64,000 bases of DNA from Maylandia zebra. Lineage: Eukaryota; Chordata; Actinopteri; Cichliformes; Cichlidae. The notes under the pieces were generated by a model. That model searched no databases. It was not told the origin of the DNA and was given only the letters and a program-made list of their open reading frames with translations. A program made the position numbers and the translations under genes. This document shows positions 5,640 through 53,497 of the stretch, piece after piece; the first letter of the stretch is position 1; each line of letters begins with the position of its first letter. The DNA lies in NCBI RefSeq assembly GCF_041146795.1, contig NC_135179.1, positions 7,971,547 to 8,035,546 on the forward strand. Reading direction: 5' to 3'.

Positions 5640-6170
5640 CATTTTCCTCGGTGTGGCTGTTGTGATTCTGTGGATTTTGTGTTATTATTTTCCGTGTTTT
5701 TGGTAGATGTTTAAGTTCCCTGAGCATTTCCCTATCTGCTCCTCTCTCTGTCACATCTTTTTGTGTTAAGTGTTAGTCTTCATGTTCTTTCATACATGTT
5801 AAGTGTTAGTACCCATTGTATTTTCTCCTATTTTACAGTGAAGATTTGTTTCTCTCATGCCCTGTGTAGTGTTGCTCTCATCTGCCTGATTGTCCTTGCC
5901 AGTCCTTACTCTGCTGTTGGACATTCCCTAATCAGCCTTTATACTTTTTCACAGCATCTACTCCATTTCCCGTGTTTGTTCCCTGTGCTCAGCATACTGT
6001 TAGCCTCACTCATTGTGGTTATTGGATTATTGTTTCTTTACTTTCTGGACTTTTCTCTGCTATTTTAGACTTTCTCTTATAAACCATATTAAAGGCTCAC
6101 TTTTTGCTGAAGTCGACCTCTTGTGTTCTGCATTTGAATCCTCAGCCTTACACTCCACACACCTTGACAT
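5640..6170 (+). repeat. Degenerate retroelement terminal segment (tentative)
   Basis: A pyrimidine-rich stretch ends with a TATTAAAGGCTCACTTTTTGC segment and a CTCTTGTGTTCTGCATTTG tail. This resembles the 3' or LTR ends of dispersed teleost retroelements with a poly(A) signal. There is no terminal repeat pair or ORF to confirm the class. A TM-like open frame in this stretch is probably a by-product of its T-richness. Confidence 0.35.
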
Positions 6171-7030
6171 CTTCTAACTTCATACTATTCTCTTCTACAT
6201 TTTGTTTTTGTCTGGTATGTTATTCTGCAAAAACAATAGCAGTTACAAAAGTGATAATAATAGTATTGACAATAAGATATTTGGAGAGGTTAGCTGAAGA
6301 GTGACAGGGAGATTTTCTGAGTTTGTATTGACTTTTTTACAGAACTGCGGAGGAGGGGAGTCTCATTTTACTCTAAGAAAAACAAGCTCTTTGACAAAAC
6401 AAAATCTTTGATAAATATGAAGTTACTCTGTTTCTAAATTGCAGTCATCTGGGGAAATGAAAAACAACATGCAAATGGCACACTTTTTCTATTTCTTTTT
6501 TTTTTTTAGAGCTACATAGTTACACTGCTGAAAAATATGCAGTCATGATATATCTGTTCATCTACTGTTTACAAGTTGCAACATAGAATACTAGGAATTA
6601 CAGAAGGAGTCGTTTATACGGAGCCCTTTTGGTGGATCTCATTGTAACAAAAACACAGGTTTTCGTGATTACTTTAAAAAGGGTTTGACTTTTTGTAACA
6701 TTAAAACAGAGTGACTGTAGATGAATAGTTTCAACTCCTATTTGCCTTGCTTATACGTGCAAATTTAAATTGAAGCTTAGTTTCAAGTCTTTTATTTCAC
6801 AATCATTGTTTTTATTTAGCGTCAGTATGTTTGCTTTGAGTGCTCTTTATTGCTAACCCAGTCAAATACCTCATATCAGTGTGAGCAGTTTAGTTCAGTT
6901 CGCCAAGCTCTGTGCTTTTGAATACAGGGAACATGTGATTTATTTTTAGAACACTTTATTTCCCAAAACTGACCTGGGTAGATTTTTAAGATGCTTCTGA
7001 CATGTGCACACCTAGCTTAAGTCCTGCTGG
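6171..7030. other. Intergenic, upstream of the peptide gene
   Basis: AT-rich sequence with no recognised coding or repeat feature; its right end is the proximal promoter region of the small secreted-peptide gene. Confidence 0.5.
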
Positions 7031-7035
7031 ACTGG

Positions 7036-7043
7036 TTTATAAG
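7036..7043 (+). promoter_or_regulatory. TATA-like box of the secreted-peptide gene
   Basis: TTTATAAG lies about 25-30 bases before the presumed start of the noncoding first exon (about 7066). That first exon ends at a strong donor (AAAAAG|GTAAGA, exon end 7117). TATA placement, a short leader exon and a secreted product together suggest a tightly tissue-restricted promoter. Confidence 0.6.
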
Positions 7044-7065
7044 TCAGTCTGAGACACTGTAAACA

Positions 7066-7117
7066 GCAGTTATAACTTTAAAGACCCATTGAGAGGCTAC
7101 TGCTCGTGAATAAAAAG
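7066..7117 (+). other. Noncoding first exon of the secreted-peptide gene
   Basis: The exon is bounded on the left by the expected distance from the TATA box (an estimate) and on the right by the consensus donor after 7117. The matching acceptor is cctgtag, ending at 7207, three bases before the ATG at 7211. No ATG of note lies within it. Confidence 0.55.
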
Positions 7118-7210
7118 GTAAGATGAGCTATTATTAAAAATCTGTTTTTCTCCCCTTAATGTGGAATTGAAGCCAAAGGACTACACTAAACCTCATTTCT
7201 CCTGTAGAAA

Positions 7211-7526
7211 ATGAAAGCTCATATTGTGCTCCTGATCCTTGTTCTTGTGGTCGGACTTACAGTGATGCCTGCTTATCCCAATGAGGACTCTAAAGGTAAG
7301 ACCTGTGTGTATGACTTAGAGAATACTCAAACAGCCCTTACTAAACACTAAGTTTGTTTATGATGGTTTCAATCTTACAGTCATTCCAGATTACATAGCC
7401 CTACACGAGCTAGAGAGAGATGGAACTTTGAAGCCATTTATACCAGAAAATGCAGGAGGTATGTTTTTTTGTTTTTTTCTTGCGCAGGAGGTATGTTGAC
7501 TAAGAATAGTTTTGTGTTTGCTCACA

Positions 7527-7575
<49 letters not shown>

Positions 7576-8148
7576 CATGTTTAGATATCTTTGTAAGGAC
7601 CAAAAATTGGAATGCTACTATACTTGTGGGGACCAACAGCCCTTATGGGGACAAAATGCCCAGCCCCACGAGTTTGGAGACATGTTTAAGGCTCAAAATG
7701 TGGTTTAGTGTCAGGGTTACAGTTAGGCTATGGTTAGGTTTAGGCTAAGGGTTAGAGTTAGCCATTCACTTGTGATGGTTATGGTAAGTGGCTAGGGAAA
7801 ACATAAAGTCAAGCAGATGTCCTCACTAAGATATGAAAAGAAGTGTGTTTGTGTTTAAAGTCTTTACCACTATGGCCATGAAGTTGCCATAAAAAACTGT
7901 ACATGCAGTACCTCAGGGTTGCACCTCAGCACAATTTTGAAAGTACTGACAGGTGTGCTGTACATAAACTTACCAGAAATGTATTTACTTAGACCTCGAA
8001 CAACTATGAAACCAGAAAGTTGTAGAGTTCAGGATAACAGACTAAACCTTTCTCAGAGTATATGTTGGTTGTACTTGGTGTGGAAGTAGTGTTTGTGACT
8101 TAATGATCTTTTGTTTTTTTTATTGCAGGGAAACCTGATGATCCATGA
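7211..8148 (+). CDS. Small secreted peptide precursor, 60 aa, unrecognised
   Basis: Three coding exons, 7211-7295, 7381-7458 and 8129-8148, join in frame (183 bases, 60 codons plus TGA). Both introns are phase 1, and every junction is consensus: AAAG|GTAAG, cttacag|TC, GGAG|GTATG, attgcag|GG. The product begins MKAHIVLLIL and has a textbook signal peptide, hydrophobic to about residue 19, with likely cleavage near MPA|YPNED. About 39 acidic residues follow, ending ENAGGKPDDP, with no cysteine and no dibasic processing site. The ATG is the first in the exon after a noncoding leader exon. Poly(A) signals follow at 8208 and 8280. I do not recognise the family. It could be a secreted hormone-like or host-defence peptide, or a fish-specific gland product. 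The gene model is strong; the function is unknown. Confidence 0.75.
7529..7573 (+). repeat. (TG)n microsatellite
   Basis: An uninterrupted TG run in the second coding intron of the secreted-peptide gene, directly abutting a dispersed teleost repeat. Confidence 0.95.
7574..7860 (+). repeat. Dispersed teleost repeat with GGTTAGGGTTAG-like core
   Basis: The stretch starts after the TG run (accatgtttagatatctttg), contains a variant GTTAGG-rich middle (7700-7760) and ends before another TG-rich stretch (gtgtgtttgtg). From memory this layout is a common interspersed repeat in teleost introns. There is no coding content. It is intronic in the secreted-peptide gene. Confidence 0.55.
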
Positions 8149-8207
8149 CAGAAAAGAGAGGTTTTCAAAAGCTTCTTATAAATGTGGCTCCCACCCAAGG
8201 CATGCTG

Positions 8208-8285
8208 AATAAACAAACATGGCAATCATACAAATAATGCTAATGTAAATATTTTGTGTTATATTATATACAGAAAAATAATAAA
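8208..8285 (+). terminator. Two poly(A) signals of the secreted-peptide gene
   Basis: AATAAA occurs at 8208-8213 and again at 8280-8285, 60 and 132 bases after the TGA. Either gives a compact mRNA of roughly 0.35-0.45 kb. Confidence 0.65.
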
Positions 8286-8623
8286 GTTCAACTTGGATTT
8301 AAAAGGATAATCTGATATCTTTAATTCCTAATTTACAATGCTCTAATTTAGATTATTATAAGAATACATTTTCTTATATGGTAAATAATTAGTAAAATAA
8401 AAGGTACGTTACTTTGTTTTTGATCTTTACCTCACAGAACTCACATGTATGCTATGGAAAACAAATGAAGAACTTTAACCTTAATTAGGTTGATCAAACC
8501 TTCCTGCAGTATTGCTACCTTTTATAATATATAAAATGCATAGGACCTTGCAGAAGAATATAAATCCACTAAACAGAGACTTGCAAGAACAAAACTTTTG
8601 CATTGTAAAGATGAAAAAAAAGG

Positions 8624-8628
<5 letters not shown>

Positions 8629-8683
<55 letters not shown>
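8629..8683. repeat. (TA)n microsatellite
   Basis: About 27 uninterrupted TA units between the peptide gene and the CTCF-like site. Confidence 0.95.
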
Positions 8684-8685
<2 letters not shown>

Positions 8686-8881
8686 TTTAAAATGTTGCCA
8701 GTGTGACTGCTTTAAGTGTCTTTATTGTATTTATATATGTATGAATAACAACTATTATTATTATTACTGTTATAACCTAGCGTTTAAATCTGAATGATAC
8801 ACAGTTAGGATCCTGCTCTATAAATACTACCATTGCACAATATCAGATCGTATCATCTTACTCTGAACTCATCGTGGACTT

Positions 8882-8898
8882 TAGCGCCCCCTGGTGGC
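8882..8898 (-). promoter_or_regulatory. Putative CTCF site, reverse orientation
   Basis: The + strand reads TAGCGCCCCCTGGTGGC, the exact reverse complement of the CTCF core CCACCAGGGGGCGC. It points left, toward the forward site at 4723-4740, with the secreted-peptide gene between them and tmem41a just outside. Confidence 0.7.
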
Positions 8899-9275
8899 TG
8901 GTCGCATAAGTGCAACTGTAGATATATACCGACCATTAACTCATCCTGATTATTACGACCTGTTGGGATGAATTTTTGGTGTTATTTTAAATAAGACGTG
9001 TTGGGGGAGAAACTGTGGGCACAAAGCTTCTTTTCCATCAGTCTAAAGAAAGTTTGCCCGGCTGCCATGTGATCCGTGTGCCGAACACCGGCCAGAATGT
9101 CAGCCGTCACCGTAGCCTGGTTCTCGGTAAGCGACACCCACTTTTTTCGCTGCCGTCCAACTGAACCGCAGCACGTCGACTTTATCTCATCGGCGGTTTT
9201 CCCCTTTGCTTAAATTCAGCCCGAGTTGTCAGCGGAGTTTTATCCGGTGATCACGGAGTTTCTGTAGGGAGCAAC

Positions 9276-13962
<4,687 letters not shown>

Positions 13963-50103: not shown

Positions 50104-50181
50104 AGCAGCTGGATAGCGTAGTGGTTAGACTACACGCCTTTGGAGCAGAGGGTCGCAAGTTCGATTCCTGCCTGGGGCGTC
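50104..50181 (+). other. tRNA-derived (SINE-like) head of the LINE
   Basis: An A-box-like TAGCGTAGTGG (50114-50124) and a perfect B-box GTTCGATTC (50160-50168) are spaced as in a tRNA gene, so the sequence carries a type-2 RNA polymerase III promoter. The T-arm pairs four of five bases, but the D-arm and acceptor stem do not close, so this is a tRNA-derived element, not a working tRNA gene. It runs directly into the LINE leader. Confidence 0.65.
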
Positions 50182-50215
50182 TGTATCCAGTAAGGGTCCT
50201 AAGGCTAGACCCCCT

Positions 50216-53200
50216 ATGCTAAGCAAGCCTACCGCAGACATGAGCGAGACAGATAAATATGAAGGCATGCCGGCTCGGACGTCGCCCGGATCAACAAGGT
50301 CCGCGTCAGGTGTTGAGGAACCAGGGCACCCTGACGAAAAGTGGGCTACTGGAACAAGAAGGCATCGGTGGGCAAGGGACGAAAACAGGGCGTTGTTGGA
50401 ATGCTACTACGCAAGTAACCCCGGTGGAAGGGGCTACATGAATAGGATGAGGGACCTATGGATTCTTCGATACCCAACATCCACAATGACGGCGAAACAA
50501 CTAGTAGCTCAGTGTTCCAACATTCGAAAGAAGGGACTGCTCTCACAGCTAGACATTGACGAGGTACAACACAAATGCTACGGCAAGGAGGAGTCAGGAC
50601 GCCAGGTCAGGGGGGAGATATCATCACCCCCACCCGAGATTGGGTACATAGCCCCAAGTGTGATAGGAGAAGGATCGTTGAGTGCGAGAGGAACTGACCT
50701 GAAAAATAGGATCATGGCCAAGCTTGAAACCTGGATCCCCTGTAGCCGGTTACCAAGATTACGTGAAGTACCCTCAGAAGGTCTGCTAGATGATGTTAAT
50801 GCAGCACTACGGGCAATACCTACAACCACGATTACCGACACTAACAAGCTGATCTACAATACGGCAGCAGTGATCAGTGAGATGCTTGGCTACAAGTTGA
50901 ACAGCCACAAGGGGCAGTACCCTCCATGGAGAAGGAGGCTAGAGGGCAAGATCAAAGTAGCACGGAGAGAGGTTAGCCAACTAACGGAGTTGCAGAAAGG
51001 TGCGACGAATAAGGTGCCTAAGAAATACAGCAAGCTGTCCATACCTGAGGCCTTGGAAACTGCCAAGCAAAGACTCACAGCCTTGGCCAGCCGCTTGAGG
51101 AGGTACACCAGAGAGATAGAAGGCAGGAGAATAAACCAGCTGTTCTCCACAGAACCAGCAAAGGTGTACTCTCAGTGGCAAGGGAACAATAAGAGAACAG
51201 CACCACCAAGGCTGGAGACGGAGCAATACTGGAAGAGCATATGGGAGAAGGATGCAACCCATAACGGCAATGCTCAGTGGCTAGAGGATCTGAGGGCAGA
51301 CCACAGCGACCTCCCTGAACAGGGTCCAGTAACCATCACAGTGGCAGATATCCAAGAAAGGGTCTCCAGTATGAAGAGTTGGACAGCACCAGGGCCCGAC
51401 ATGGTTCACGCCTACTGGCTGAAGAAGCTAACTGCACTCCACGAGCGTCTGGCAGCACAAATGAACCAGCTGCTAGTTAACGAGAGACACCCAGAATGGC
51501 TAACTGAAGGCCGGACGGTCCTGATCCCCAAGGACCCCAAGAAGGGACCGGTCCCCTCCAACTACCGACCAATAACCTGCCTCAGTACTACATGGAAGCT
51601 CCTGTCAGGCATCATATCGGCTAAGATGAACAGGCACATGGGTCAATACATGAGCGGGACACAGAAAGGAATTGGCAAGAATACCAGAGGCGCAAAACAC
51701 CAGCTACTGGTAGACAGAACAATCAGCCGAGACTGCAAGACCAGACTGACCAACCTGTGCACTGCCTGGATTGATTACAAGAAGGCCTATGACTCAATGC
51801 CCCACAGCTGGATACTGGAATGCCTAGAATTGTACAAGATCAATGGGACCCTAAGAGCCTTCATCAGGAACTCAATGGGGATGTGGCGTACAACACTAGA
51901 GGCCAACTCCAAGCCCATAGCACAAGTCACCATCAAGTGCGGGATCTACCAAGGAGATGCTCTGTCCCCACTGCTGTTCTGCATAGGCCTGAACCCCCTC
52001 AGTGAGATCATTAACAAGACTGGCTACGGATACCGACTACGGAACGGAGCAGTTGTCAGCCACCTCCTGTACATGGATGACATCAAGCTGTATGCCAAGA
52101 GTGAACGAGACATCGATTCACTGATCCACACTACCAGGCTATACAGCAATGACATTGGAATGTCGTTCGGACTGGAGAAGTGTAGTCGGATGGTAACAAA
52201 GAGAGGGAAGGTAGTCAGAACTGAGGGGATTGAACTACCAGAAGGCAACATTGCAGACATAGAGGACAGTTACAAGTACTTGGGGATCCCGCAGGCGAAT
52301 GGGAACCATGAAGAGGCCGCTAGAAAAGCTGCAACCACCAAGTACCTGCAGAGGGTCAGGCAAGTCCTGAGGAGTCAGCTGAATGGTAAGAACAAGATCC
52401 GGGCCATCAACACGTACGCCCTGCCCGTGATCAGGTACCCTGCTGGGGTAATAGGCTGGCCAAAGGAGGAGATAGAAGCCACTGACATAAAGACAAGAAA
52501 GCTCCTTACCATGCATGGAGGGTTTCACCCCAAGTCCAGCACCCTGAGGCTGTACGCTAAGCGGAAGGAAGGGGGCCGGGGACTGGTGAGTGTCAGCACC
52601 ACAGTCCAGGATGAGACAAGGAACATCCAAGAATACATTGGGAAGATGGCCCCAACTGACCGAGTGCTCAGTGAATACCTCAGGCAGCAGAAACCCAAGA
52701 AAGAGGAGGGAGACGAGGAACCATCATGGAAGGACAGGCCCCTGCACGGTATGTACCACCGGCAGATAGAGGTGGTGGCTGATATCCAGAAATCCTACCA
52801 GTGGCTGGACAAAGCTGGACTGAAAGACAGCACAGAGGCACTAATCATGGCAGCACAAGAACAAGCTCTGAGCACAAGATCCATAGAGGCTGGGGTCTAT
52901 CACACCAGGCAAGACCCCAGGTGCAGGCTGTGTAAAGATGCCCCAGAGACAATCCAGCACATAACAGCAGGGTGCAAGATGCTAGCAGGCAAGGCATACA
53001 TGGAACGCCATAACCAAGTGGCCGGCATAGTGTACAGGAACATCTGTGCGGAGTATAACCTGGAAGTCCCGAGGTCAAAATGGGAGATGCCCCCAAGGGT
53101 GGTGGAGAATGACCGAGCTAAGATCCTGTGGGACTTCCAGATACAGACGGACAAAATGGTGGTGGCTAACCAACCGGACATAGTGGTGGTAGACAAACAG

Positions 53201-53497
53201 AAGAAGACGGCCGTAGTGATCGATGTAGCGGTTCCGAATGACAGCAATATCAGGAAGAAGGAACACGAGAAGCTGGAGAAATACCAAGGGCTCAGAGAAG
53301 AGCTCGAGAGGATGTGGAGGGTGAAGGTAACGGTGGTCCCCGTGGTAATCGGAGCACTAGGTGCGGTGACTCCCAAGCTAGGCGAGTGGCTCCAGCAGAT
53401 CCCGGGAACAACATCGGAGATCTCTGTCCAGAAGAGCGCAGTCCTGGGAACAGCTAAGATACTGCGCAGGACCCTCAAGCTCCCAGGCCTCTGGTAG
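50216..53497 (+). CDS. LINE polyprotein: Myb-like, reverse transcriptase, REL endonuclease
   Basis: An uninterrupted 1,093-residue ORF. In order: a Myb-like DNA-binding region at about 49-106 (HRWARDENRALLECYYA); a reverse transcriptase from about 425 to 690, with NYRPITCLSTTWKLLSG, GIYQGDALSPLLFC and the catalytic YMDD at 619-622; a thumb region; a CCHC zinc knuckle with C903, C906, H915 and C920; and a restriction-like endonuclease with PD at 987-988 and D1003 (PDIVVVDKQKKTAVVID). A C-terminal restriction-like nuclease instead of an N-terminal APE nuclease, with a Myb-like front end, places it in the R4/Dong group, of which Rex6 is the fish representative. These enzymes nick DNA and copy their own RNA at the nick. 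All key residues are present. The start could instead be the ATG eight codons in (MSETDK). Confidence 0.92.
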   Translation: MLSKPTADMSETDKYEGMPARTSPGSTRSASGVEEPGHPDEKWATGTRRHRWARDENRALLECYYASNPGGRGYMNRMRDLWILRYPTSTMTAKQLVAQCSNIRKKGLLSQLDIDEVQHKCYGKEESGRQVRGEISSPPPEIGYIAPSVIGEGSLSARGTDLKNRIMAKLETWIPCSRLPRLREVPSEGLLDDVNAALRAIPTTTITDTNKLIYNTAAVISEMLGYKLNSHKGQYPPWRRRLEGKIKVARREVSQLTELQKGATNKVPKKYSKLSIPEALETAKQRLTALASRLRRYTREIEGRRINQLFSTEPAKVYSQWQGNNKRTAPPRLETEQYWKSIWEKDATHNGNAQWLEDLRADHSDLPEQGPVTITVADIQERVSSMKSWTAPGPDMVHAYWLKKLTALHERLAAQMNQLLVNERHPEWLTEGRTVLIPKDPKKGPVPSNYRPITCLSTTWKLLSGIISAKMNRHMGQYMSGTQKGIGKNTRGAKHQLLVDRTISRDCKTRLTNLCTAWIDYKKAYDSMPHSWILECLELYKINGTLRAFIRNSMGMWRTTLEANSKPIAQVTIKCGIYQGDALSPLLFCIGLNPLSEIINKTGYGYRLRNGAVVSHLLYMDDIKLYAKSERDIDSLIHTTRLYSNDIGMSFGLEKCSRMVTKRGKVVRTEGIELPEGNIADIEDSYKYLGIPQANGNHEEAARKAATTKYLQRVRQVLRSQLNGKNKIRAINTYALPVIRYPAGVIGWPKEEIEATDIKTRKLLTMHGGFHPKSSTLRLYAKRKEGGRGLVSVSTTVQDETRNIQEYIGKMAPTDRVLSEYLRQQKPKKEEGDEEPSWKDRPLHGMYHRQIEVVADIQKSYQWLDKAGLKDSTEALIMAAQEQALSTRSIEAGVYHTRQDPRCRLCKDAPETIQHITAGCKMLAGKAYMERHNQVAGIVYRNICAEYNLEVPRSKWEMPPRVVENDRAKILWDFQIQTDKMVVANQPDIVVVDKQKKTAVVIDVAVPNDSNIRKKEHEKLEKYQGLREELERMWRVKVTVVPVVIGALGAVTPKLGEWLQQIPGTTSEISVQKSAVLGTAKILRRTLKLPGLW

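Follow-up and report, generated by a model that had tools for sequence, protein, structure and literature searches.

Small open reading frames conserved among animals encode small peptides, some of which carry predicted signal peptides (PMC4568590). That survey reports that signal peptides are rare among the novel small frames and no more numerous than in a length-matched control set (PMC4568590); a leader by itself is thus weak evidence for a gene. Those frames were chosen by their conservation in multiple alignments (PMC4568590), whereas the candidate described here was read from one genome and its frame is divided among three coding exons.

The candidate lies in a 64,000-nucleotide stretch of the Maylandia zebra genome, called the window below, where it falls within a gap of ~8.6 kb on the forward strand, the orientation shared by its two neighbours (Table 1). 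Peptide hormone precursors resemble it in having a leader, a short mature part and a TATA-type promoter, but differ in that the candidate possesses neither a dibasic site nor cysteine. A prohormone or neuropeptide precursor was accordingly rejected, the dibasic convertase sites of such proteins being absent from the 60 residues. We estimate a probability of roughly 55% that the interval between BEAN1 and TMEM41A contains a genuine small gene, spliced and driven by the TATA box, that encodes a secreted, cysteine-free, acidic peptide.

Anatomy and predicted product

The letters of the TATA-like box, the noncoding exon, the three coding exons, the splice sites and the phase-1 junctions are as the sequence-only reading had described them, and both of the AATAAA signals that it had named can be read at their positions. 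The spacing from the TATA-like box places the inferred cap site at ~7065-7070. As 7064-7117 lacks any ATG, the inferred mRNA first has one at 7211, in a good context with an A at -3. The spliced frame comprises 60 codons with phase 1 at both coding junctions.

Table 1 Features of the candidate gene and its neighbours.
Feature	Coordinates	Strand	Basis or remark
Window	C13:7971547-8035546		Genome of 962 Mb, 63 contigs
BEAN1, last exon (presumed)	Frame end at 702	+	Upstream of candidate
TATA-like box TTTATAAG	7036-7043	+	Direct reading
Putative 5' noncoding exon	7065-7117	+	Start approximate; TATA spacing and donor AAG/GTAAGA, score 6.15
Putative exon 2	7208-7295	+	ATG 7211, leader residues 1-21 and first mature residues; sequence, splice scores
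Putative exon 3	7381-7458	+	78 bases, phase 1-1, least certain part; sequence, splice scores, chain search
Putative exon 4, coding part	8129-8148	+	Stop TGA 8146-8148; acceptor score 9.18
Putative introns	7118-7207, 7296-7380, 7459-8128	+	
Donors	7117, 7295, 7458	+	AAG/GTAAGA, AAG/GTAAGA, GAG/GTATGT
Poly(A) signal AATAAA	8208-8213	+	
Poly(A) signal AATAAA	8280-8285	+	
TMEM41A (presumed)	ATG at 9276, later exons ~12881-13920	+	Downstream of candidate; VTT domain (Pfam)
GPR155 (presumed)	Further right in window	-	One piece with DEP domain (Pfam)
WIPF1 (presumed)	Further right in window	-	No Pfam match

Transcription from the TATA-like box followed by splicing would yield an mRNA for a 60-residue preprotein, which the leader would direct into the secretory pathway. 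TATA promoters suggest tissue-restricted expression, and expression of the candidate may likewise be confined to a restricted tissue. The leader is strongly hydrophobic, the best 11-residue segment having a Kyte-Doolittle mean of 3.69. A small residue is usual at -3 of a signal cleavage site; the leader has no ideal site, the residue at -3 of its best one, after Ala21, being Met. Judged by eye, cleavage would most likely occur after Ala21 and generate a 39-residue peptide beginning at Tyr22, with nine acidic residues, four lysines or arginines and a pI of ~4.35. The 60-residue product contains no cysteine, and the acidic, cysteine-free character ascribed to the mature part is thus borne out (pI 4.35 from Tyr22). 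None of the dibasic pairs KK, KR, RK and RR occurs in the 60 residues, so the peptide would be released whole; it would presumably leave uncut and flexible into the extracellular or luminal space.

The long, V/L-rich hydrophobic stretch, together with the Met at the Ala21 site, would also suit a small membrane-anchored luminal microprotein in which the uncut leader serves as a signal anchor. In our judgement a leader of this length, followed by a short hydrophilic tail, is equally compatible with a cleavable signal; we regard the anchored form as improbable, though a serious alternative.

Splice sites, coding character and chance

Splice sites were scored with general textbook weights for vertebrates. 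The three donors are strong: among the forward-strand GT dinucleotides of the window, the first two rank within the top 0.6% and the third within the top 1.4%. The acceptors are uneven: among all AG dinucleotides in the window, that preceding 8129 is excellent (top 0.05%), that preceding 7208 is fair (top 3.9%), and that preceding 7381 is weak, since it ranks only in the top 14.5%. Rival middle exons outscore the proposed one. The chain with exon 7381-7458 has a sum of 22.67 and is tied sixth among 210 chains in 6001-9000; with the same leader exon, higher sums are reached by middle exons 7488-7625 (28.08), 7917-7952 (24.31) and 7390-7458 (23.24). Alternatives for exon 3 are an acceptor at 7390 and a donor at 7490. 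The latter arises from a 14-base direct repeat, GCAGGAGGTATGTT, which holds the exon-3 donor at 7452-7465 on the forward strand and recurs at 7484-7497, duplicating this donor 32 bases downstream. The second donor occurs in chains, where its product would be 92 residues with the acceptor at 7381 or 89 with that at 7390. If exon 3 were skipped, the reading frame would be preserved and the product, by manual count, would have 34 residues.

The codon log-odds of the frame total 2.6 bits, a value matched by at most 1.5% of 3000 stretches sampled where the window was taken to be noncoding, but in weak contrast to -0.3 for the next frame. When only synonymous choice was scored, the frame gave -5.9 bits over 58 codons, compared with -0.7 to +33.2 for 11 neighbour-gene pieces, which are the model's own training set. 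(Thirteen such pieces were given; two of GPR155 are absent from the window and were dropped.) The coding support is therefore one of amino-acid make-up, not of codon choice. Such codon choice would be expected if the locus were transcribed and spliced into a long noncoding RNA, or held a young frame that is untranslated or functionless; the ambiguity of the middle exon and the want of a homologue in Pfam or elsewhere in the same genome point the same way. Against this, a leader-like frame starts at the 5'-most ATG of the inferred mRNA, which has a good context, and runs through three exons of equal phase; we consider a noncoding or functionless locus unlikely.

Whether such a structure could assemble by chance was addressed with a chain pattern consisting of an acceptor, an ATG at most 60 bases on, a leader-like exon, a middle exon, and a last exon with a stop and poly(A) signal; the full pattern also demands a donor further upstream, accompanied by a TATA box. 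This pattern was defined after the fact, with thresholds chosen to let the candidate locus pass. The candidate is the sole full-pattern locus in the window (1 in 128,000 strand-bases). The six-site splice sum is 28.82 for the proposed chain and 30.46 for the best chain at the locus, which has another middle exon. In other DNA of the same genome, a small control of 29 loci read on both strands (578,000 strand-bases), no locus had a six-site sum of at least 28.8; three full-pattern loci scored lower, the best of which begins at the genuine first exon of a second TMEM41A copy. Reversal of the control DNA gave 1 locus in 578,000 bases and reversal of the window 0 in 128,000. Simulated Markov DNA was added for size. 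It contained no TATA-bearing full chain in 241 Mb; a single full chain without the TATA box came from the 124.1 Mb simulated at order 2, and none from the 117.0 Mb at order 4.

The candidate was picked after 64 kb had been read, and chance may have brought together splice-, TATA- and leader-like words where there is no gene. When the TATA demand was dropped, the 28 real loci outside the window (560,000 strand-bases, both strands) yielded one full chain, with a five-site sum of 29.8 versus 22.67 for the proposed chain. The same real DNA held two leader-exon candidates, compared with 49 in the 241 Mb of Markov DNA (21 in 124.1 Mb and 28 in 117.0 Mb); they are thus far commoner in real sequence, and Markov DNA understates chance. 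Reversed DNA in this search held no leader-exon candidates in 688,000 bases, which makes it a weak null. It is the complete pattern that exceeds chance, rather than the splice sites by themselves. As neither the real nor the simulated controls contain its equal, a real small gene is likelier than a chance assembly, which we hold to be decidedly unlikely. If the locus is not transcribed and conserved, it would serve as an example of how convincing a short gene can be read from AT-rich intergenic DNA. The claim of a small secreted-peptide gene consequently stands in that a spliced gene with a leader best fits the anatomy and exceeds the controls; the middle exon on which it was built is only one candidate among several.

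Relatives and genomic setting

A protein search of the 962-Mb genome at E values up to 10 found no second copy, with only the self-match among the best candidates, and searches with the DNA of 6990-7470 and 8090-8330 likewise returned self-matches only. These results argue that the candidate is not a common repeat, and an origin of its exons from repeats was rejected; the intron segment 7471-8089, between the two queries, includes a (GT)n run.

The sole entry in a Pfam profile search at E values up to 10, run with HMMER filters that discard many weak matches, was PF11714, Inhibitor_I53 (madanin), with E 0.091. The match covers only residues 4-27, that is, the leader, and its 13.4 bits against a Pfam gathering score of 25 led us to reject membership. 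The motilin/ghrelin profile was not matched in this search, and that family was set aside as well. Defensin- or hepcidin-like antimicrobial peptides require conserved cysteines, which the candidate does not have. Secretory calcium-binding phosphoproteins (SCPP) have phase-0 introns, so the phase-1 coding junctions exclude the candidate from that group.

One match at chance level (E 0.55) was obtained among PDB chains. A search pattern fitted 22 stretches in IMG/VR and 118 in GTDB contigs, none of which was confirmed; the scan detects close relatives only, and these negatives say little about a fish gene. In the literature, strings from the peptide sequence were not found, nor was work on tmem41a in teleosts; among the titles listed, a search for tmem41a with bean1 gave nothing on the candidate locus, and one for small teleost-specific secreted orphan peptides gave unrelated work only. 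The term fish-specific, which the sequence-only reading had proposed, would reflect no more than a lack of matches in sequence collections without a second vertebrate genome. A small orphan secreted-peptide candidate of an ordinary kind is plausible, and the evidence as read from the sequence does not support a stronger claim of a new fish factor. If transcribed and conserved, it would add one more orphan secreted peptide to the fish secretome.

A second TMEM41A copy is located at C16:22853643-22857567 on the reverse strand, in head-to-head orientation with putative coding pieces of EHHADH. A TMEM41A-EHHADH neighbourhood is known from mammals. The neighbours of the window copy differ from those of the C16 copy. 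A paralogue of the candidate derived from genome duplication was sought in 9 kb at the C16 copy, ~6.5 kb of it upstream, and none was found: the best E values of a low-stringency tblastn, among the matches listed, were 0.27 for the whole peptide and 0.11 for the mature part, and the best match was a 12-residue stretch that reads TMEM41A exon 1 in a different frame. One might imagine a lineage-restricted signalling peptide, perhaps of percomorphs or cichlids, that is secreted, belongs to no known family and arose or was kept only in the BEAN1-TMEM41A interval, with no counterpart in the sequence read next to the C16 copy; taken jointly, these features make a distinctly improbable proposal.

Among the flanking genes, the names of which are presumptive, Pfam had no match for the BEAN1 frame, for two other GPR155 pieces or for WIPF1. 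Promoter words in 6401-7070 (five FOXA-like words, four E-boxes and several single matches) had no control, were uninformative and were dropped.

Elsewhere in the window, an unbroken forward-strand frame of 1122 codons at 50129-53497 contains an RVT_1 domain (E 8.7e-26) and presumably represents a non-LTR retrotransposon ORF; as it is uninterrupted and apparently intact, it is probably a young copy. In the left flank, at a distance of ~31.2-30.2 kb from the window, a 348-codon open frame resembles a Tc1/mariner transposase. Large gag/pol-like frames, which we take to belong to an LTR retrotransposon, lie closer, at ~11.9-5.8 kb. They are bordered on both sides by a 107-codon frame, identical in its two copies (-11886 and -6080), which suggests near-identical LTRs and a recent insertion.
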